From the IMG/VR virus record IMGVR_UViG_3300048589_000228, positions 1 through 35,630 of that record: a DNA stretch of 35,630 nucleotides; one strand, 5' to 3'. Position 1 is the first letter of the stretch, and every line of letters begins with the position of its first letter. Position numbers and translations under genes: made by a program. The notes beneath the pieces were generated by a model. It saw only the letters and a program-made list of their open reading frames with translations. It made no database searches and was not told the origin of the DNA. Below, one piece after another: positions 5,449 to 35,630 of this stretch. Origin of the DNA: a virus.

Positions 5449-6891
5449 TCAGTAGGCGTACACAGGTGCCGGAGCGGCGGCGACATCACCATGACGGGCC
5501 GCCCACGTCGCCAACGTCACCGCCACCGCCGGAGTGATGCACGCGCCGTCACGACGGCCCCAAGCGAACGCGCCAGCCAGTGGGCGAGTCGTCAGCGCGC
5601 TAATCGCATCGTTCAGGATCTCGTCATCCAGATGAGCTAGCCGCCCATCGCCGACGAGGTCCAAGAACATGCCGCACGCCGCAGCCATCTCACGGGAGGT
5701 CACGAGTCGGACCTCGACGCCGGCCGCCTCGAGGTCCACGACCAGCGACCCCGCAGGCCCCGCCGGGTCGAGCACCACCATTCCCGCACGATGCCTCGCC
5801 CGGATCTCGGCGACACGCTCCACGACCCACGACGTACCCGGCCGATGATCGACCACCTCGACGCCGACCTCAGCCGCAGATGAATGGCCCGCCGCCGCCA
5901 CCGACGACAACGACCGATCGGGCGCCACGTCCACCGCCAGGTGGAGGTTCCCGACCAACTCCGAACCAGGATGAGCACACGCCGACCACAACGACTCGGC
6001 AACCGGCGAAGCGGAGTCCACGTCAGCCGGCCACACACCCAGCACCTCGGAAAGGAACTGGGCTTCCGGCATCGCATCACGCAGCGCCTCGACCGTCTCC
6101 ACCGGCACCCGGAACCCCATGCCGGGGTTCGCCGAGCACCACGCTTCGCGGTCATCGGCGTCGACCAGCACCGGCGGATCCTCCGGCCGGTCCTGCTGGG
6201 CAGAGGTCCACTCCATCCACACCAACCTGCCCGGAGCGTCCGACAACGACCGGCGGCGCATCCGCAGCAGGTGGGCGGTCTCGGCGTTGAGCTCGGTCGG
6301 TACCGTCGAGGTCAACCACACCTGAGGGTTGGGCGACGCCGCGAGCGTCGGCATGATCGCGCCGACGTTCTCCGCCGGCAGGTCGTACGCCTCATCCAGC
6401 ACCAGGAGGTCGCCAGTCAGACCGCGACCCGACGAGCGCGAGCGGGCGATGAACCACACGCACGCACCATCGACCATCTCGATGCGTGGCTCGTTGCCGA
6501 CGATGACGTTGCGCACCCGGCGACGGATGTCCGGGCACCCCTCCACAAGGTCGATCAGCCGACGTTGGTGGTTCTTCGCCGTCTTGAACTCGTGCGCCGT
6601 GTGGATGATCTGCTCACCCAGCACCACCAGCCCGAACAGCTCCCGGGCCTCGAGCGCCGATCCCTTGCCGTTCTGACGGGCGACGGTCACCGCCACCTCG
6701 TAGGCGGCCCATGCGTTGCCGTTGGTCGCCATCCCCTCAGTGAGGGTCAGCTCCTGCCACGGGTCCAGGAGCAGCCCGGCGAGCCGGGCCAACTCGACCG
6801 CATCGGGGCCGAGCGTGCCGTCAGCGCGAGGAGGCTTGACGAGCCTTCGCGGGTCGCGTGCGCCGATCAACTCGACGGTTGGCAAGCTCAT
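5449..6891 (-). CDS. Terminase large subunit
   Basis: This 480-aa packaging motor has an adenine-binding Q region (LLLDPWQEL), a Walker A variant VARQNGKGS at residues 70-78, Walker B DLLVLDEAYD at 161-170 with the catalytic Glu, and a motif III-like WLTSTVP stretch. The C-terminal nuclease contributes acidic residues in LAVDVAPDRS, VVLDPAGPAG and LNDAISAL. Its ATG at 6891 lies 71 nt inside the upstream small gene; no later start keeps the Q motif, so the overlap seems real. It cuts concatemeric DNA and pumps it into the prohead through the portal encoded next. Confidence 0.95.
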   Translation of the reverse strand: MSLPTVELIGARDPRRLVKPPRADGTLGPDAVELARLAGLLLDPWQELTLTEGMATNGNAWAAYEVAVTVARQNGKGSALEARELFGLVVLGEQIIHTAHEFKTAKNHQRRLIDLVEGCPDIRRRVRNVIVGNEPRIEMVDGACVWFIARSRSSGRGLTGDLLVLDEAYDLPAENVGAIMPTLAASPNPQVWLTSTVPTELNAETAHLLRMRRRSLSDAPGRLVWMEWTSAQQDRPEDPPVLVDADDREAWCSANPGMGFRVPVETVEALRDAMPEAQFLSEVLGVWPADVDSASPVAESLWSACAHPGSELVGNLHLAVDVAPDRSLSSVAAAGHSSAAEVGVEVVDHRPGTSWVVERVAEIRARHRAGMVVLDPAGPAGSLVVDLEAAGVEVRLVTSREMAAACGMFLDLVGDGRLAHLDDEILNDAISALTTRPLAGAFAWGRRDGACITPAVAVTLATWAARHGDVAAAPAPVYAY

Positions 6892-12335: not shown

Positions 12336-12538
12336 GGTGTCCCCTTGTGCATGGCGGTGGCCCGTGCGGCGAGCCCGGCTTCGTGGCGGGCGGAGAGCTG
12401 CTCCAGGCGTCGGGCGGCGAGGGTGAGCACGTGGCCGATGGTCGGGTCGAGCGCCCCGGTGAACCCGTCTGCGATGACGCGCAGAGCGCCGACGATGTCG
12501 GCGGTTGCCGGTTCGGAGCGGGGGTAGTCGTCGCTCAT
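12332..12538 (-). CDS. Small helical hypothetical protein
   Basis: This 68-aa protein has two amphipathic helices (IVGALRVIADGFTGAL and HVLTLAARRLEQLSARH). Both ends overlap neighbours by ATGA, with the helicase-methylase upstream and the exonuclease downstream, so it is translationally coupled to DNA-processing genes. No motif for catalysis or metal binding is visible. Confidence 0.75.
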   Translation of the reverse strand: MSDDYPRSEPATADIVGALRVIADGFTGALDPTIGHVLTLAARRLEQLSARHEAGLAARATAMHKGTP

Positions 12539-15048
12539 GGCGTCGCCTCGTCAAGGTCGAACAGCGTGGGCATTGCCACCTTCCGCTCAGCGCTCTGGAG
12601 GTACTTGACGCCGTCGAGGAAGTAGCCGGTGTTCAGCTCGGCGGCGCGCCCTCGACGGTCCTTGAGCAGTGCCCGCATGGGCACGGTGAACAGGCCACCG
12701 AACGGGTCATAGATCAGTTCTCCGGGGTTTGAGTATCGGTCGATGAGCCGGTCCACAATGTCGAATTGCAGCGGACAGACGTGCATGGCTTGCGCCTTGC
12801 GTGACTGCTCCGTGTTCAAGGTCAGCATCCGGTTCACGTCGTGCCACACGTCGGGGTGCCACGATGCGGGGGAGAGTTCCATGAACGTCGCTGGTAGTCG
12901 GCCTTCGGCGTCGATGGCGTCTCCGATGGCCACGTGCACTTCGTGGTCGTACACAGTCTCAAGGGTGAACCGCTCGAACAGCGACATGATCTGAGCGGTA
13001 TCGAATGCCGCCCATTCCTCCGGGGTGAGCGGTCGGTCACCGTTCGATCTCCAGAACGCGTGAGCGTCGGTCTGCCAGCGAGATCGCGAGTAGTCCGCCT
13101 TGTCTTTCGTCACTGGGAGGTCGGCGTAGCCCTTGGTGCGGTCAGTCTGTGGCTTGCGGAAGATCAGCACGTACTCCGGCGAACCGACTCCCATCTTGGA
13201 ACCATCCTTCGCCATCTCTGACCATCCGAGCCGGTAGGACTGATTGTTCTCCCTCACCACGTCGGTTGTGATGGTGACCATTCCGAGGTACTCGAACCCA
13301 TGTCGCAGTGAGTGCATGAGCGCTTCGGCGTGGAACGGCGAGACCGTCGAATACCCCTTGCCGGTCGTGTTCCCGAAAAGAATGCGGTCCTTGACGTGAC
13401 AGCAATAGATCCGCCCTGGTCGCAGCACTCGCAAGAGTTCGGGTGTGAGGAAGTCCATCTGCGCCCAAAAGTGGTCGTTGTCATCGGTGTGCCCAAAGTC
13501 GTTGTAGGACGGCGTGTATTCGTAGTGGTTCGAGAATGGAATGGAAGTGATGATCTGGTCGACGCTCTCCGTCTCGATCATCTGCGTTTCGAGCACGCAA
13601 TCATTGTTGGCGACGGTCCACCCGTCGCCGGAAGCCTCGACTCTCTCGACGCCGAGGCTGCGGATGAGCTGTTCGTTCAATCCCACGTTATTGAGCCCGT
13701 GCTCGCGGATGAGATTCGACATGATCTTCACCGTCTCCCTGTGCCTGTCCCACTTCTGGTTGATGGTCGACACGACCGGCGATTCAGCGTCGGTGTGCAC
13801 GATGTGCGCGTGACATGTGCGGGTCTGACCGAACCGGTAGATCCGGTGGACCGCCTGTATCACGTCGTTGAACTTGTAGGTGAGCCCGACGAACACGGCC
13901 CGGTTGCACTGCTGGAGATTGAGTCCCTGGCCGAGCATCACCGGCTTGCCGATGAGCGCGCACGTCTCGCGAGCTTTCCATGCGGCGATCCGCCGCTCCG
14001 ACTCGTCGATGGTGAGCGATCCATACACCGACGAATGCGAAATGCCAGCATGGTCGAGGGCGCGCTCAATTGCCCGCTGCTCGTCGTTCAGATCGCACCA
14101 GATGACCACTTGCTCTCCGTCATTACCGACGCCATGCCCGGCGAGAATCCCCATCAACTCGGCCAGCCTGTCGTCGATCGTCTCCCGCTTCTCGGCGGCA
14201 GCTTCACTCACACCCAGACTGCCGACGCTAAGCAGCTTCCCCTGCCCGTCTCGCTCATAGGAAAGTAACTTGTTCGGATCTGTGGTCACCTTGTGGTAGT
14301 GCACCTCAAGCTCGGGGAGCCGGTACCGGTCATCGGGGTAACCGAGGTCGCTCGGGGTCTGTAGGAACACGGCCCACGACGAAAGCCATAGCCAGAACTC
14401 CTCTTCCTTGTGCGGGTAAAGGGTGAGGTTGTTCGCCTTCGTCGAATCTCGTTGGAAGAACCGTGTCAACGCCTGCCCGGTGTCCATCACCCCGAGAAAG
14501 CCGGCGTAGTGGATGAGCTCTTTGTATCGGTTCGGTGCGGGGGTGGCCGTTGCCACAAAGCGGTACGGCACGGCATCGAACATCTGCAGGAAGGAGATGT
14601 AGGTCTTTGATCCGAACGACCTCAACACGCTCGCTTCGTCAAGGCTCACCGCGCTGAACAGATGAGGGTCGAGCTTCCCATCACGCACGCTCTCGTAATT
14701 GGTGAGGTAGATCCCCGGCTCGTCGACCTCATCGGTGCGGCGAACGAACCGTGTTTCGATTCCGAGCATGTCGGCATCGTGGACGAACTCGGCGCGCACC
14801 CCGAGCGGGCAGATGATGAGTGCCCGCTCACCTTCCGGTGTGACGAGTCGCAGCGTCTCCAGTTGCATGACGGACTTGCCTAGTCCGAAGGCGGCGAAGA
14901 TGGCGCGCCGCCCGCCGCGCACTGCCCATTCGACGATTGCCCGTTGATGGGGGAACAGGAGTGGGTTCACTTCGCCGGCGTCGACGACTACCCCATGGTC
15001 CGTGGTCGGCGGGCGCTTCGATTCGAGGAACGCTTGGTAGTCGCTCAC
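12535..15048 (-). CDS. SNF2/DEAD-type helicase fused to DNA methyltransferase
   Basis: This 837-aa protein has two parts. Residues 1-430 form a superfamily 2 helicase: Walker A FGLGKSV (54-60), DEAS (137-140), VATATPAPN (165-173) and motif VI HRIYRFGQT (401-409). Residues 480-837 form a beta-class methylase with catalytic motif TSIPFSNHYEY (501-511) before the SAM-binding motif YDPFGGLFT (780-788). The catalytic tetrapeptide SIPF departs from the usual (S/N/D)PP(Y/F). The gene is visibly less G+C-rich, with many A/T-ending codons, unlike its neighbours, which suggests separate origin. It likely modifies phage DNA against restriction. No cognate nuclease is seen. Confidence 0.9.
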   Translation of the reverse strand: MSDYQAFLESKRPPTTDHGVVVDAGEVNPLLFPHQRAIVEWAVRGGRRAIFAAFGLGKSVMQLETLRLVTPEGERALIICPLGVRAEFVHDADMLGIETRFVRRTDEVDEPGIYLTNYESVRDGKLDPHLFSAVSLDEASVLRSFGSKTYISFLQMFDAVPYRFVATATPAPNRYKELIHYAGFLGVMDTGQALTRFFQRDSTKANNLTLYPHKEEEFWLWLSSWAVFLQTPSDLGYPDDRYRLPELEVHYHKVTTDPNKLLSYERDGQGKLLSVGSLGVSEAAAEKRETIDDRLAELMGILAGHGVGNDGEQVVIWCDLNDEQRAIERALDHAGISHSSVYGSLTIDESERRIAAWKARETCALIGKPVMLGQGLNLQQCNRAVFVGLTYKFNDVIQAVHRIYRFGQTRTCHAHIVHTDAESPVVSTINQKWDRHRETVKIMSNLIREHGLNNVGLNEQLIRSLGVERVEASGDGWTVANNDCVLETQMIETESVDQIITSIPFSNHYEYTPSYNDFGHTDDNDHFWAQMDFLTPELLRVLRPGRIYCCHVKDRILFGNTTGKGYSTVSPFHAEALMHSLRHGFEYLGMVTITTDVVRENNQSYRLGWSEMAKDGSKMGVGSPEYVLIFRKPQTDRTKGYADLPVTKDKADYSRSRWQTDAHAFWRSNGDRPLTPEEWAAFDTAQIMSLFERFTLETVYDHEVHVAIGDAIDAEGRLPATFMELSPASWHPDVWHDVNRMLTLNTEQSRKAQAMHVCPLQFDIVDRLIDRYSNPGELIYDPFGGLFTVPMRALLKDRRGRAAELNTGYFLDGVKYLQSAERKVAMPTLFDLDEATP

Positions 15049-18552: not shown

Positions 18553-19361
18553 CGCCGGGCCTCCTGGACGTAGCCGCGGTCGTCCATCACCCAGCCGGGC
18601 GGCAGGGTCACGCCCTCGGCACCGCGCAGGTCGGCACCGCGCAGGTCGGCACCGCGCAGGACGGCGTCGCGCAGGTCGGCACCGCGCAGGACGGCACCGC
18701 GCAGGTCGGCGTCGCGCAGGTCGGCACCGCGCAGGTCGGCATAGCTCAGGACGGCACCGCGCAGGTCGGCATAGCTCAGGTCGGCACCGCGCAGGTCGGC
18801 ACCGCGCAGGACGGCGTCGCGCAGGACGGCGTCGCGCAGGACGGCACCGCGCAGGACGGCACCGCGCAGGTCGGCACCGCGCAGGTCGGCGTCGCGCAGG
18901 ACGGCGTCGCGCAGGTCGGCATAGCTCAGGACGGCACCGCGCAGGTCGGCGTCGCGCAGGACGGCGTCGCGCAGGGCGGCATAGCTCAGGACGGCACCGC
19001 GCAGGTCGGCGTCGTGGCAGATCAGCATCCGCACCGGGTCGAACGGCTCCGGTGCCACCCACAACCGGGACACCCGCACCTTGTCCACGGTGGCGGCCAG
19101 CACGTCGGCGGGCAGGTACCCGACGAGCAGCCCGACCGACGTACCGATGCGAGCGCCACCGGACCGCGCCCCCGTCAGGGTACGGGCAGCGCACAGCCCG
19201 TCACCCGGATGATTCGGGCACGGGTCGTCGTGCACGGTCGGGTTTTCCGCCTCATGCCACTCACCCAGCCGGTAACGGTACCGGCCTCCGGCGTGGTCGT
19301 CAGTGGCAAGGTCAGTGCCGACGAACTTGTACCCCCAGTGGAGCCCCTCGGGGACGGTCAC
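18549..19361 (-). CDS. Pentapeptide-repeat protein (26 repeats)
   Basis: This 270-aa protein has about 115 residues of unique N-terminus (MTVPEGLHWGYKFVGTDLA; GTG start 19361 overlapping the previous stop) and then 26 uninterrupted pentads A(D/V)LRG, A(D/V)LRD or A(D/V)LSY. Such repeats fold into a right-handed quadrilateral beta-helix. In MfpA/Qnr proteins the helix mimics DNA and protects or inhibits gyrase; phage examples are less studied. The pentads are nearly pure Leu in the centre with Arg/Asp outward, more uniform than MfpA. A short cap (EGVTLPPGWVMDDRGYV) ends the protein. A gyrase or nuclease decoy is plausible but not shown. Confidence 0.88.
   Translation of the reverse strand: MTVPEGLHWGYKFVGTDLATDDHAGGRYRYRLGEWHEAENPTVHDDPCPNHPGDGLCAARTLTGARSGGARIGTSVGLLVGYLPADVLAATVDKVRVSRLWVAPEPFDPVRMLICHDADLRGAVLSYAALRDAVLRDADLRGAVLSYADLRDAVLRDADLRGADLRGAVLRGAVLRDAVLRDAVLRGADLRGADLSYADLRGAVLSYADLRGADLRDADLRGAVLRGADLRDAVLRGADLRGADLRGAEGVTLPPGWVMDDRGYVQEARR
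18621..19010 (-). repeat. 26 tandem 15-bp units encoding pentapeptides
   Basis: The DNA is an unbroken array of 15-bp units, mostly CAGGTCGGCACCGCG-like on the plus strand with a few fixed variants (GACGGCGTC, ATAGCT). DNA identity between units is far higher than protein function needs, which points to recent expansion by slippage or unequal recombination, and the copy number may vary between related phages or be mis-assembled. Confidence 0.95.
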
Positions 19362-19729
19362 GACGCCACCTCGGCCGCATCGACGGCGGCATCGACGGCG
19401 GCGAGCATCCGACGGGCGAGCATCTCCACCTCGGCGGGGGTGCCGGAGAACACGGCGGTGAAGCACGACCGTCCGACGGACAGGAACACCCGGCCGTCGG
19501 CGGTCCGGGCGGTCGGCTCGGCCACCTCTGCGGCGAGGTGCACGTTGGCCCCGACGATGACGTCGTATGGATCGCTCATGGTTGGTCCCTCTTCTTGGTT
19601 GACGAACTCGGCGAGCGCGGCGAACGCCTGCCCGTCGAGGTAGAGCACGGGCCCCGTGGCGACCCGGGTGCCGCGGGTGGTGCGGGTCCAGAGGACGACC
19701 GTCCCGTCGGACTCGCTCGGCCACTTCAT
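19358..19729 (-). CDS. Hypothetical protein with paralogous C-terminal domain
   Basis: This 123-aa protein starts at ATG 19729 (ATGA overlap). Residues 1-50 (MKWPSESDGTVVLWTRTTRG...) are a small strand-rich part. From Met51 (MSDPYDVIVGANVHLAAEV) begins a domain that is repeated in the 108-aa protein at 16947. An AAGAGGGACC ribosome-like site precedes Met51, so a separate 73-aa product from 19579 is possible. The function is unknown. Confidence 0.7.
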   Translation of the reverse strand: MKWPSESDGTVVLWTRTTRGTRVATGPVLYLDGQAFAALAEFVNQEEGPTMSDPYDVIVGANVHLAAEVAEPTARTADGRVFLSVGRSCFTAVFSGTPAEVEMLARRMLAAVDAAVDAAEVAS

Positions 19730-19908
19730 CGCTCCTCCACCCTTCGGGCACGGCGGGCCGCAGCAGCACGCCGGCGGGCCTCCTCGGCTTCGCGGCGCTC
19801 ATGGTGGACCCCGAGATGGACCCCCGCCCACCCGCCGGCGACGAACGCCACGATGATGAGCACCCCCGCCCAGTCGTCGAGGGAGTAGTCGAGGATGGTG
19901 GCGAGCAT
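19726..19908 (-). CDS. Single-pass membrane protein with charged tail
   Basis: This 60-aa protein has one hydrophobic helix (WAGVLIIVAFVAGGWAGVHLG) near the N-terminus, then a long Arg/Glu/Ala helix (HHERREAEEARRRAAAARRA), giving an N-out/C-in topology by the positive-inside rule. ATG 19908 overlaps the upstream stop and its own stop overlaps the next start. No known family. Confidence 0.68.
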   Translation of the reverse strand: MLATILDYSLDDWAGVLIIVAFVAGGWAGVHLGVHHERREAEEARRRAAAARRARRVEER

Positions 19909-20033
19909 CAGCCGTGCTCCTGCGTTAGGGCCTTCCGGCCGGCTTCGATCCGAAAGCGGAATCCGGCCACCTCGTACCGTTCGCCAGCAGCGAACCGTCG
20001 AGAGCCGATGTCGAGGTGAGCTTCCCTGCTCAT
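19908..20033 (-). CDS. 41-residue hypothetical protein
   Basis: The frame begins MSREAHLDIGSRRFAAGERY at ATG 20033, ATGA-coupled to the methyltransferase stop, and continues EVAGFRFRIEAGRKALTQEHG. It looks like a small beta-hairpin protein. Support comes from coupling at both ends and the G/C-ending codons. Confidence 0.6.
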   Translation of the reverse strand: MSREAHLDIGSRRFAAGERYEVAGFRFRIEAGRKALTQEHG

Positions 20034-20689
20034 GCCTCGTTCCCCCATGTGTGCCACCCGAACCGTCGGCGCCTGGCGAACATGTCCAGCCTCGGTGCCG
20101 GTGAGCACGTCTCCACGAGGTCGTAGAACGACTCGGGTTTGGCAGAGTGGCGGGTGCGGTCAGCGACGAAGTGTGTAGGCACGTCGTTGCGCGCTGTCGG
20201 GAGCTTGCCTCGGATGCCGAACAGCACATGCTCCGTGCTGTTGCGGAACCAGTTGCCCATACCGATCTGTGGCTTGCACCACGTCAGGCACGTCTTGTAG
20301 GTGAACCCCCAAGCGTCGACCAGGTCGAACGCCTCTCGGAGGAATCCGTTGGTGGTCCACAGGTAGAGGTGCGCGTTGTCCGACGCGGGGAGATCGAGTG
20401 CGGCCAGCTCTGCGAGGGTCATCGTCGGGTAGTGGTCTTCGGCGGCGCCTCGGGTGGCGGTGTTGTCGTACCGCCAGGGCGGGTCTACGACGATGGTGGG
20501 GAACTCGGCGGCGGCCTCGGCCCAGAGCCTCACGGTCTCCCGACTCACCGGCACTCCCACGATGCCGCTCAGCTCATCGGCGATGCGCTGCCATGCCCAC
20601 CCCGCACCCCTGAGATGTCCCACCCACTCGAATGGGTCCTGGCGGAGGGAGGTGCGGGCTAGTCGTTGCAGTGGGGAGTCGTTCTCCAT
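20030..20689 (-). CDS. MT-A70 family N6-adenine DNA methyltransferase with N-terminal HTH
   Basis: This 219-aa protein has the catalytic tetrad DPPW (residues 69-72, in FPTIVVDPPWRYDN) and the following MT-A70 landmarks HYPTMTLAEL, HLYLWTTNGFL and FTYKTCLTWCKP. The SAM-binding fold continues with SKPE-like SAKPESFYDLVE and RLDMFARR. Residues 24-58 (VGHLRGAGWAWQRIADELSG...VSRETVRLW) form a helix-turn-helix, uncommon in the stand-alone enzymes. ATG 20689 is chosen; the promoter 9 nt upstream would give an almost leaderless mRNA. As first gene of the early operon it may methylate phage DNA against restriction or act as its own regulator. Confidence 0.92.
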   Translation of the reverse strand: MENDSPLQRLARTSLRQDPFEWVGHLRGAGWAWQRIADELSGIVGVPVSRETVRLWAEAAAEFPTIVVDPPWRYDNTATRGAAEDHYPTMTLAELAALDLPASDNAHLYLWTTNGFLREAFDLVDAWGFTYKTCLTWCKPQIGMGNWFRNSTEHVLFGIRGKLPTARNDVPTHFVADRTRHSAKPESFYDLVETCSPAPRLDMFARRRRFGWHTWGNEA

Positions 20690-20693
20690 GTCG

Positions 20694-20764
20694 TGCAACT
20701 ATATTGCAGTACCGCAGGAATGCAACCCCCTTGCGGAAGATTCTTCCCGGGTTCCCCCTTGCAA
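20694..20764. promoter_or_regulatory. Cluster of TTGCA/TGCAA half-sites in the divergent control gap
   Basis: Four pentamers lie in 71 bp: TGCAA 20694-20698, TTGCA 20704-20708, TGCAA 20721-20725 and TTGCA 20760-20764, with near-copies TTGCG in between. The first two form a perfect dyad around CTATA, flanking the -10 of the promoter read toward the methyltransferase, and the third overlaps its -35. CCCCCTTGC also occurs twice (about 20726-20733 and 20755-20762). The layout suits a repressor/activator operator or, beside a half-integrase, arm-type attachment sites. Confidence 0.5.
20698..20725 (-). promoter_or_regulatory. Putative early promoter for the methyltransferase operon
   Basis: On the minus strand TTGCAT (20725-20720), a 16-nt spacer and TATAGT (20703-20698) form a sigma-70-like promoter. 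The -10 is good and the -35 weak. Predicted start is about 20691, only 2 nt before ATG 20689, so the mRNA would be close to leaderless, common in actinobacteria. Confidence 0.55.
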
Positions 20765-21058
20765 ACGATTTGCGGTGAGGGCACCACCCACCGACGGCCG
20801 ATCACCGCGCAACGGATCTCCGAGCTCGTCGCCGGATGGGTGCGGACCGCCGGAGTGCAGCTCCACCCGAGGGACGGGCGCACCGCCCACGCGTTGCGCC
20901 GGACATGCGCCACGGACCTTCTCGAGCGCGGCACGTCGGTGCGGACCGTGCAAGCGGTGCTCCGCCACCAGTCGCTATCGACCACGGCCCGCTACCTGCG
21001 CCGGGCGGACGCGGCGGCGCTGGCCGAAGTGCTCGACGTGAGACGGTGGGCGGCGTAA
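20720..21058 (+). pseudogene. C-terminal half of a tyrosine integrase
   Basis: The coding pattern is convincing from about residue 45 of the open frame: ITAQRISELVAGWV, then box II HALRRTCATDLLERG, LRHQSLSTTARYLRR with the His and the tyrosine nucleophile, and a short end RRWAA. Missing are the N-terminal DNA-binding domain and the first catalytic Arg/Lys, so by itself it should not recombine DNA. Start is uncertain (ATG 20720 is the first plausible one). It is a decayed integrase or a deliberately short protein. The frame is intact, with no stops, which is odd for a dead gene. It lies on the opposite strand to almost everything else. Confidence 0.75.
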
Positions 21059-21068
21059 CGTCCCGGGG

Positions 21069-21176
21069 ATGAACGATGAGTGGGTGCTCGCCCTGTTGGC
21101 CGTCGTCGCGGTGGCTCTCGCACTGTTCGGCCTCTACCGGTTCATCGCCGCAGCGGTCGCCCGAGGTCGACGATGA
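21069..21176 (+). CDS. 35-residue membrane peptide after the integrase remnant
   Basis: ATG 21069 opens M-N-D-E-W followed by VLALLAVVAVALALFGLY, one hydrophobic helix, and a basic end AVARGRR. Its TGA overlaps the ATG of the next gene (ATGA). A GGGG run directly precedes the start. It is probably co-transcribed with the integrase remnant and the 68-aa gene. Confidence 0.6.
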   Translation: MNDEWVLALLAVVAVALALFGLYRFIAAAVARGRR

Positions 21177-21379
21177 GCGAGGAAGCCGACCGCCGCCAGC
21201 GCACCGTCATCACCACGGTCTCCGTGGTCGGGCTGGTTGTCGGCCCGTTGCTGATGGTCGACGCGTGGAACACCCAGGACATCACGGGCAAGGTCACTCC
21301 CGATGAGATGGTGATCGGGGTGGTGATTCTCGTGCTCGCCGTGCTCGGCATGGCGAAGACGCTCCTCGCCCGTCACTGA
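21173..21379 (+). CDS. 68-residue two-helix membrane protein
   Basis: The protein reads MSEEADRRQRTVITT, then a hydrophobic helix (VSVVGLVVGPLLMV), a polar hinge with WNTQDITGKVTPDEM, and a second helix (VIGVVILVLAVLGMA) with a basic tail. Both termini are predicted inside. It converges with the HTH gene, 10 bp away. Candidate roles are holin-like or exclusion protein; nothing decides between them. Confidence 0.68.
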   Translation: MSEEADRRQRTVITTVSVVGLVVGPLLMVDAWNTQDITGKVTPDEMVIGVVILVLAVLGMAKTLLARH

Positions 21380-21389
21380 CCCCCTCGAC

Positions 21390-21854
21390 TCACCTCCCCG
21401 GCCTCCGCCCCGGACGCCCCCTCACCCCTGCCGCCGCGAGCATCCGGCCGACCGTCCGCACCGAGCAGCCCTCCGCCTCGGCGATCTCCGGGCGGGTCGC
21501 TCCGGCGGCGAACGCAGCAGCGACCCGCTGAGCGCGTCGCTCCCGCTCCTCCACATCCAGCGGATCAGCCCCGGCCGGTGCGAGACCACGACGGGCCAGC
21601 CACTCCCGCACCGTCGACTCATGCACCCCAGCCTCCTCGGCCATGTCCGCCACCGACAGACCCTGACGGACCCGCACCTCGAGCCATCGGAGCGTGAGGA
21701 TCTCCCCGGCGCCGTGATCGGTGCGGCCTCGCAGCGGCACCCCCCCAGCGTGGAGCCGCCGCCAGATCGTGGACTGGTCGACCCCTACGTCTGCTGCGAG
21801 CTCGGCGACTGGCACACCCGCCAGGTAGCGGGCGGCCAGGTCGTCGGCGGTCAT
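21390..21854 (-). CDS. Triple helix-turn-helix DNA-binding protein
   Basis: This 154-aa protein contains three consecutive HTH units: PVAELAADVGVDQSTIWRRL, SVADMAEEAGVHESTVREWL and TRPEIAEAEGCSVRTVGRML, each about 45-55 residues apart, with a basic C-terminus (GRPGRRPGR). Repeated resolvase-type HTHs suggest it reads a long or repeated site. It is ATGA-coupled to the 112-aa gene, and both follow the best promoter in the genome. It is a good candidate regulator for the TTGCA operator 650 bp away, but there is no direct evidence. Confidence 0.8.
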   Translation of the reverse strand: MTADDLAARYLAGVPVAELAADVGVDQSTIWRRLHAGGVPLRGRTDHGAGEILTLRWLEVRVRQGLSVADMAEEAGVHESTVREWLARRGLAPAGADPLDVEERERRAQRVAAAFAAGATRPEIAEAEGCSVRTVGRMLAAAGVRGRPGRRPGR

Positions 21855-22189
21855 CGGAGGGCCGAGGCGTAGCAGGACTCGCAGCCGTGCTCGTCGACGC
21901 TCGTCCAGTAGTCGCGGGTGAGGCGCTCGCACTCGGCCCAGTCGCCGTCGTCGTCGACGTAGCCGAGGGACACGGCGACGCACCACATGACGTGGGTGCC
22001 GCCGTCGGCGTCCATCGACCCGGGGCGCAGCTCCCGGTACTCGGAGTCTGTGAGGACCGACTGAGTGCCGTCAGTATCCACTGCGACAGCGACCAGGTCG
22101 GAGCCTGCCTCAGTGCTGGCGGAGATGACTTCGGTGGTGACGACGATCTCGTCGGTGGAGTGGATGTTGGTGGTGGTCTCTGTTTCCAT
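21851..22189 (-). CDS. Hypothetical acidic protein, first gene after the strong promoter
   Basis: This 112-aa protein starts METETTTNIHSTDEIVVTTE and is Thr/Glu/Asp-rich. It continues with strands (DLVAVAVDTDGTQ), an HVMWCVAVSLGYVDDDGDW segment and Cys residues near the end (ECERL, GCESCYASALR). The acidic surface could mimic DNA or bind a basic partner; that is speculation. ATG 22189 coincides with the expected transcription start of the promoter at 22196-22223, so the message is probably leaderless. Confidence 0.75.
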   Translation of the reverse strand: METETTTNIHSTDEIVVTTEVISASTEAGSDLVAVAVDTDGTQSVLTDSEYRELRPGSMDADGGTHVMWCVAVSLGYVDDDGDWAECERLTRDYWTSVDEHGCESCYASALR

Positions 22190-22195
22190 GTCTCT

Positions 22196-22223
22196 ATTGT
22201 ACGCAATGGAGACAGGAAGTCAA
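22196..22223 (-). promoter_or_regulatory. Near-consensus sigma-70 promoter giving a leaderless mRNA
   Basis: On the minus strand TTGACT (22223-22218), a 16-nt spacer and TACAAT (22201-22196) each match 5 of 6 consensus bases. The start 7 nt downstream is the A of the ATG at 22189. It drives the 112-aa and HTH genes and lies just past the late terminator. It stands out sharply in very GC-rich DNA. Confidence 0.8.
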
Positions 22224-22258
22224 CCCTCCGGCCGAAAAAATCCCCCGAGAACGCGAAA

Positions 22259-25995: not shown

Positions 25996-26229
25996 TCATC
26001 GCCGCCTTTCCGCGCGCACCGTCCGAGCGCGCACCTTCGCTGACACCCGCCCGTCCGGGTGGTGGATCTGCACACCGGCCGGCCGGCCGTCGTCCTCATG
26101 CGGGACCGTGACGACCTTCGCCCCGTCGGAGCGCACCGTCGGCCGCGGGATCCGCATGCCCTGCCCGGAGAACCCGACGGACTGGAGAGCGTCGCGGTCG
26201 ATGACCCGACCCGCCCCGTCGAAGATCAC
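25996..26229 (-). CDS. Small hypothetical protein in the tail module
   Basis: This 77-aa protein, GTG start at 26229 overlapping the previous stop (GTGA), reads MIFDGAGRVIDRDALQSVGF and ends basic (KVRARTVRAERRR). It could be an adaptor between adhesin proteins. Nothing identifies a family. Confidence 0.65.
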   Translation of the reverse strand: MIFDGAGRVIDRDALQSVGFSGQGMRIPRPTVRSDGAKVVTVPHEDDGRPAGVQIHHPDGRVSAKVRARTVRAERRR

Positions 26230-34867: not shown

Positions 34868-35630
34868 CAGGCGATCCCGGGGATGGCCCGGTAGCCGTTG
34901 AGCACGGCATCCAACTCGAGGACTCCGGTGGGTCGACCGGCGTCGTAGTCGGGGGTGGAGTAGCGGACAGTGTTGCCGTCGACGGTCTCCCACAGCATGT
35001 CAGACGGCGCCTGAGCGCCCCGGCCGAGGAGGTCCCGCCGGACAGCGCGCACCATGGCGGTGACGATCTTGGCGGGGGGGAACGGGTCGCCGTGTTCGAC
35101 CTCGACGACGATCGGCTTGCCGGCGGTCCACCCCGCGTCGAGATGGAGGACGGTCCCCGCGATGATGTCGATGTCGGCAACGTCGACCGCTTCACCATCG
35201 ATCGTGGCGGCACGAACGGCGGACACGGGAGAATGGAAAGCGGGCAGACAGGTGCCACCCTTGCCCCAGTGCGACTCAATGACGAACTGGGGCACGAACG
35301 ACTGCCGGCAGTACCGCTCGACGTACTCGGCCATCCCGTCGCGGTGTTCCATGAGCAGCCAGTCGGGGAACCTGCCGACGTCGGACAGCCCCGGTTCGCG
35401 GCGGAGCCGGGCGAGGGTCATGTAGTCGGTTCCGACCGCGTCGACCCGGAACCCGACGACCTGTGGTGCACCACCGACGGTGGCGGTGATCGTCACATCG
35501 AGCTGGTCGAGCTGGTCGAGGTGGTTGGCCGCCGTGAGCGTGACGGCCACATGGGTGCCGACGACGGCAGCGGATGGCGCCGTAGCGGTGGTGCCATCAG
35601 CGCGGGTGACGACGGCCGCCGGGGTCACCG
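34867..35630 (-). CDS. Head-tail connector (gp6-like), main part
   Basis: Together with positions 185-1 this gives a 273-aa protein. The helical core is visible in DYMTLARLRREPGLS, DWLLMEHRDGMAEYVERYCR and QSFVPQFVIESHW, then strands and a C-terminal helix KIVTAMVRAVRRDLLGRG. The pattern YVERYCRQSF is the mark of gp6-type adaptors that form a ring under the portal. A short LDQLDQLDV triplet-like duplication lies at the contig join. The stop overlaps the tail terminator start. Confidence 0.87.
   Translation of the reverse strand, partial: VTPAAVVTRADGTTATAPSAAVVGTHVAVTLTAANHLDQLDQLDVTITATVGGAPQVVGFRVDAVGTDYMTLARLRREPGLSDVGRFPDWLLMEHRDGMAEYVERYCRQSFVPQFVIESHWGKGGTCLPAFHSPVSAVRAATIDGEAVDVADIDIIAGTVLHLDAGWTAGKPIVVEVEHGDPFPPAKIVTAMVRAVRRDLLGRGAQAPSDMLWETVDGNTVRYSTPDYDAGRPTGVLELDAVLNGYRAIPGIA
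35504..35630. repeat. Terminal direct repeat, right copy
   Basis: Exact copy of positions 1-127. See the left copy: it marks circular closure of the assembled genome, inside the connector gene. Confidence 0.95.

Follow-up and report, generated by a model that had tools for sequence, protein, structure and literature searches.

Partial integrase genes, called likely defective by the authors who described them, occur in the Gordonia phages Wizard (gene 44) and Twister6 (gene 47; PMC5559632), and mycobacteriophage TM4 is interpreted as a derivative of a temperate parent from which the integration cassette was lost (PMC3203893). The locus analysed here resembles those of Wizard and Twister6 in that a truncated integrase gene lies near the genome centre of an actinophage and a portion needed for catalysis is missing. 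Their gene, however, is serine-integrase-like, lacks its N-terminal catalytic domain and accompanies an integration system that looks intact, whereas the present fragment is of the tyrosine type and is the sole recombinase found. With TM4 it shares the absence of a central integration module relative to temperate relatives; TM4, however, has wholly lost int and attP, whereas here the 3′ third of int stays and no close temperate relative with the same int is known. Given the Gordonia partial integrases and the TM4 precedent, the finding is ordinary in kind.

Two further systems invite comparison. In the integration-dependent immunity of phage BPs, attP lies in the repressor gene (PMC4557955). 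In four cultured phages that we fetched (Gordonia phages TillyBobJoe, Walrus and Phishy and Mycobacterium phage Xula) a full-length tyrosine int is preceded by an annotated repressor gene, either immediately or with one gene in between, and the int product ends in AA in three of them and in VA in the fourth. The ORF studied here ends in RRWAA, which would be a putative ssrA-like degradation tag of the kind on which the earlier note had speculated; since three of the four fetched integrases also end in AA, the ending may be inherited; unlike the four phages, this one yielded no attP, no upstream repressor and no full-length tyrosine integrase of the kind that BPs-type immunity involves. The archaeal SSV-type suicidal integrases, with their int(N) and int(C) pieces, offer another likeness (PMC8371274). 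There the attachment site lies within an int gene that the free element carries whole and that is split on integration, and such enzymes are reported only from archaea; here it is the free form that is broken, in a closed circle without an N-terminal half.

The window analysed is the whole 35,630-nt stretch of viral DNA (IMG/VR record IMGVR_UViG_3300048589_000228). Its first and last 127 bases (1–127 and 35504–35630) form an exact terminal repeat, and the window is a closed circular genome of ~35.5 kb (35,503 bp with the repeat counted once). The blocks of the closest sister phage (G002) that match nearest the window ends lie ~6.2 kb apart, against 5.6 kb expected in a closed circle, a spacing that supports the circle by distance only, the intervening genes of G002 not matching those of the window. 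The assigned genes point leftward, apart from the plus-strand ORFs of the remnant locus (Table 1).

Table 1. Features at and around the integrase remnant, in window coordinates.
Feature	Position	Strand	Basis or remark
Stretch with remnant and methyltransferase, no DNA match in G002	18566..22244		~2.0 kb of other genes there in G002
MT-A70-type methyltransferase, divergent, first gene leftward of the array	20030..20692	-	Pfam MT-A70 5.2e-24, PHROG 359
Mechanical ORF	20666..21058	+	TTG start, 130 aa, no internal stop
TTGC/GCAA site array, both strands	20666..20785		8 sites in 120 bp; operator-, origin- or attP-like by inference
Sole later in-frame ATG ahead of the homologous part	20720..20722	+	a 112-aa product could start here
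17-nt imperfect direct repeat pair inside the array	20726-20742 and 20754-20770	+	82%; short two-copy repeats often arise by chance
Integrase 3′ remnant, C-terminal tyrosine-recombinase catalytic part	20786..21058	+	Pfam, PHROG, codons, alignment
35-aa hydrophobic peptide ORF, downstream of remnant	21069..21176	+	hydrophobicity by eye
68-aa hydrophobic protein ORF, start overlaps preceding stop	21173..21379	+	hydrophobicity by eye
Multi-HTH protein	21390-21986	-	up to three helix-turn-helix matches in one chain

The length of the ORF alone is unremarkable, as 118 of 2,000 shuffled 393-nt blocks of the window stayed open in one frame; its homology is what stands out. Residues 42–115 match positions 101–170 of the 172-position Pfam Phage_integrase profile (PF00589; E = 9.7e-14), and four PHROG integrase families match as well (best E = 8.9e-14). 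Matches in the PDB at E up to 0.01 comprise seven distinct sequences, including XerC-like, XerA and XerD proteins and phage ‘Gp33’, which we take to be the Brujita integrase, while the NCBIfam XerC, XerA and XerD matches were far under their cut-offs. On alignment, the box II His and Arg, the second His and the Tyr are present in the remnant, and the regions of the first Arg and the hairpin Lys have no counterpart; among eight aligned rows the four residues (H, R, H, Y) are invariant. By C-terminal catalytic homology with these four residues, the predicted product belongs to PF00589. The ORF and its alignment thus bear out the earlier note, which had described half an integrase with an intact C-terminal catalytic motif and no N-terminal half, keeping box II, the second His and the Tyr, lacking the first catalytic Arg and free of internal stops.

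Although the note had equated the fragment with the entire ORF, and that ORF does exist, the integrase part is shorter. Codon log-likelihoods trained on 13 of the phage's own genes were positive in the remnant's frame in eight of nine ten-codon blocks from 20786 onward and negative in the three blocks spanning 20696–20785; block 20666–20695 scored slightly positive but overlaps the methyltransferase gene, to which the first 27 nt of the ORF are antisense. Because the coding signal begins only near 20786, the true integrase part comprises about 91 codons (~20786–21058). By eye, and unscored, RFFPG, a faint WFP-like stretch at ~20735–20755, resembles cultured phage integrases. The arm-binding domain is absent, as the note had remarked, but that alone is nothing unusual: the Brujita integrase is described as arm-less, and the four integrases of cultured phages that we took from the list of matches are only 272–296 aa long. 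The notable loss is that of the entire core-binding domain together with the first part of the catalytic domain. In the named collections, the coding part matched no phage at 1e-5. The whole ORF matched phage records (166 at E up to 1, the best at 2e-4) and plasmid records (42 at E up to 1e-3), in every case as a partial match to another integrase.

The missing half was sought throughout the genome. The remnant is its one PF00589 match, and neither Phage_int_SAM_1 (PF02899) nor the serine recombinase family Resolvase (PF00239) matched anywhere in it. A profile built from the N-terminal halves of six integrases gave nothing convincing when run on a six-frame translation of the circularised window, with 714 ORFs (best E = 1.2); this profile detected full-length integrases in all three loci outside its build (L011, L004 and L005; 9e-8 to 4e-21), and a C-half profile detected the remnant at 1.2e-19. 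Neither the ORF nor the six frames of the genome yielded a core-binding domain or the two residues that would complete the catalytic set (first Arg, Lys), in agreement with the claim that there is no N-terminal half. In the sisters, the two profiles gave sub-threshold matches, the N-half at L189 9200–9490 (E = 0.016), antisense to the HTH gene there, and the C-half at L192 6927–7019 (E = 0.02); neither reaches any Pfam family, and both were taken as chance. No tRNA gene or Rfam element that could serve as a candidate attachment site was found in the window.

The remnant itself shows little decay. It scores 51.9–52.5 Pfam bits, against 44.2–65.1 for nine C-terminal pieces of full-length integrases. 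Under 5% random substitution, 216 of 300 copies stayed open, with a median profile score of 55.4; under 10%, 146 of 300 stayed open (a stop arose in 154) and the median was 45.5, compared with 66.9 observed, a test that bounds decay loosely, the remnant's starting score not being known. Because its score has decayed so little, the observations point to either a recent loss or a fragment under selection or in use. Of the random substitutions in the catalytic box that the earlier note had named as evidence against its reading, no clear sign is seen.

Directly ahead of the remnant lies the TTGC/GCAA array. None of 2,000 dinucleotide shuffles of the same 120 bp reached its eight sites, and some four-letter word reached eight in 4 of 2,000, the stretch and the word having been chosen after inspection. 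The longer form TTGCA/TGCAA occurs six times there, against once in each next-best stretch, which makes this the densest such array of the genome. The densest cluster in the sister has four sites (L189 9156–9207), just ahead of the HTH gene of its own cassette; the more distant relative G006 has no cluster. Comparison of the two phages suggests that the array is possibly a shared regulatory or origin-like element heading the leftward genes in both. Its reading as attP is weakened, since the sister has the array without any int. A 22-base exact pattern taken from the array matched no viral contig. In the sister, a 74-aa ORF on the minus strand (L189 8916–9137) lies beyond the array from the HTH gene, on the opposite strand, and scores 23.6 bits against the Ltp lipoprotein family, just over the cut-off of 23.2. 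This family is known from superinfection exclusion by temperate phages, and the ORF is a possible superinfection-exclusion gene.

A capsid search returned 27 loci, two at 95% identity, seven at 73–77% and the remainder lower. We looked for PF00589 in 34 related records, made up of 26 of these 27 loci and 8 of the 80 that a methyltransferase search returned, with none of the 61 from a terminase search included, and 8 of the 34 have it; many of these records are fragments, so its absence is meaningful only for G002, and of the eight that bear it only G006 was placed against the remnant locus. G002, at 95% capsid identity, has no PF00589 in 31.8 kb, which spans the locus, and one of its replacement genes encodes a small HTH protein that resembles BldC and excisionases at scores below cut-off. 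It was also the only record returned by a search of viral contigs with the sigma-like neighbour. G006, at 77% capsid identity, has a 322-aa int ORF on the strand opposite to all its window-matching genes. This int lies between the homologue of the window gene at 26226 and the WhiB and exonuclease homologues, in the same order as in the window, within a broad interval of ~14.6 kb between flanking matches, and an HTH ORF of the same orientation (DicA-like, below cut-off) overlaps the 5′ end of int. The earlier note had held that relatives with a full-length int at the same locus would tell against it; judged from the order of the flanking matches, one relative, G006, does carry such a gene at the equivalent place, but its product is a distant homologue of the remnant (~44% identity over 41 aa) and the interval is wide. 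At locus L011 (5884–8477), a relative (70%) of the window's MT-A70 methyltransferase has an integrase ORF upstream of it in the same orientation.

Viral contigs searched with the ORF and then with its coding part gave no confirmed relative, in searches where only close relatives are visible. The prophage form with a longer N-terminus envisaged in the earlier note did not come to light either: genome contigs searched with the ORF and with the capsid alignment gave no confirmed relative, by short peptide patterns (two only for the capsid) that would show close relatives only. As regards a repressor, the distance from the methyltransferase start to the remnant is only ~95 bp, too short for a repressor gene, and a screen of 20 ORFs against PHROGs returned a WhiB-like factor and the multi-HTH protein but no clear repressor. 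The multi-HTH protein, with weak PHROG matches to repressor families, is a candidate regulator beside the remnant and could be a repressor. The 68-aa ORF matched no PHROG family and had no confirmed relative in viral contigs.

We read the fragment as the 3′ scar of a tyrosine integrase gene, left by deletion or cassette exchange in a phage that would be unable to integrate by itself, and give this a probability of about 0.78. The ancestral int would have been transcribed rightward from a divergent control region that also served the leftward early genes, probably with a repressor gene upstream of int, as in G006; that this repressor was lost is a guess. The stretch from the control region to the last third of the gene would then have been lost, either by deletion or in a cassette exchange that had one of its ends within int, so that the TTGCA array came to adjoin the int 3′ end. 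Loss of this stretch is the simplest history, and the coding signal does stop at ~20786, right after the array. Internal deletion and cassette exchange are not separable, because the whole 18566–22244 block differs from the sister. Tyrosine recombinases need a core-binding domain and the full set of catalytic residues for recombination. The product of the remnant, if made, would have no core-binding domain and neither the first Arg nor the Lys, and by itself should be incapable of recombination, so that the phage should not integrate with its own enzymes; the two split parts of the archaeal SSV2 integrase did not interact in solution without DNA (PMC8371274). What the sequences show is the fragment, the absence of the other half, a closed genome, a full-length int in one relative but none in the sister, and the array; the deletion or exchange, the loss of a repressor, the function of the array and the non-integrating lifestyle we infer. 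Against a scar stand the lack of a relative with the parent state (the same int at full length), the mildly unexpected retention of a broken gene in a compact phage genome and the lack of clear decay. With a full-length int in G006, none in G002 and little decay in the fragment, recent loss of lysogeny, one of the possibilities raised in the earlier note, fits best.

The note had also proposed a short protein with a new role. Such a protein would be expressed, from the ATG in Table 1, out of the divergent control region together with the two small hydrophobic ORFs, and would bind DNA or interfere rather than act as a recombinase. An open frame with phage-like codon use in 20786–21058, a well-preserved catalytic core, closely spaced same-strand ORFs downstream and the existence of a short PHROG integrase family that matches the remnant (phrog_7269, 89 positions; E = 9.5e-05) all suit it. 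However, the 22 codons from that ATG to 20785 score as non-coding, and no relative carrying the fragment emerged from the viral contigs, among which only close relatives would show. A consensus promoter scan found none on either side of the array, remnant or methyltransferase, a weak objection as the methyltransferase is likewise without a promoter, and AlphaFold prediction of the fragment alone reached a mean pLDDT of 46.6, from a single sequence and too poor to use, which counts weakly against it as well. Beyond the preserved open frame nothing speaks positively for a functional short protein, and we consider it unlikely. Far less probable is that the phage carries the 3′ end of a recombinase gene of the host or a resident element as its attachment site, with a recombinase acting in trans, integration into that gene joining its host 5′ part to the 3′ part from the phage, and the full gene present only in the lysogen. 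The break directly follows a repeat array that could hold arm-type sites, a 3′ copy that restores the gene would need just such a preserved catalytic end, and restoration of disrupted tRNA and tmRNA targets by island sequence is a general pattern (PMC4383910). Yet no phage recombinase was found to start integration, the sister's array without an integrase match makes the array more likely regulatory, no prophage or host form was found among close relatives, and the known enzymes with att inside int, described as exclusive to archaea, are intact when free and split on integration (PMC8371274). The note's version, an attP within int with the full gene only in the prophage, is improbable and finds no support: no N-terminal half was found in the closed circle, so the free phage could not catalyse such an integration and a recombinase would have to be supplied by the host.

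Slimmer still is the chance that the phage dropped its own recombinase, that the 3′ end of a resident recombinase gene serves as its att and that excision is controlled by a hybrid host–phage int in the lysogen; no paper on an integrase C-terminus fused to host DNA turned up in one literature search. Just as hard to credit is an assembly artefact, with two molecules wrongly fused in the contig at ~20.75 kb and a complete int in the actual phage. This is a single assembly, and the break coincides with the repeat pair, but the circle is closed by the exact 127-bp repeat, an array of the same motif also precedes leftward genes in the sister, and a full int would need to have collapsed out of a closed assembly.

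The probable scar of a lost int matters mostly as a call for caution, in that automatic integrase annotation would call this phage temperate, whereas its closed genome holds no usable recombinase that we could find. Together with the sister that has no int and the further relative with a full-length one, the phage makes up a short natural series in which the loss of lysogeny can be followed within one lineage.

Elsewhere in the window, a repetitive stretch at 18616–19033 has 81–88% DNA similarity to genes of Salmonella and Edwardsiella phages, some annotated as pentapeptide repeat proteins, a similarity probably driven by the repeats. An 837-aa protein encoded on the minus strand at 12535–15048 joins a helicase C-terminal domain to an N6/N4 DNA methylase, and the 3′ part of its gene has 74% DNA similarity to Mycobacterium phages Nivrat and LilMoolah. 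The large terminase subunit (5449–6891, minus strand) is 30% identical to that of G006 and 37% to that of G002 (partial), whereas the portal, protease and capsid proteins encoded beside it reach 70–95% identity, which suggests module exchange at the terminase/portal border.
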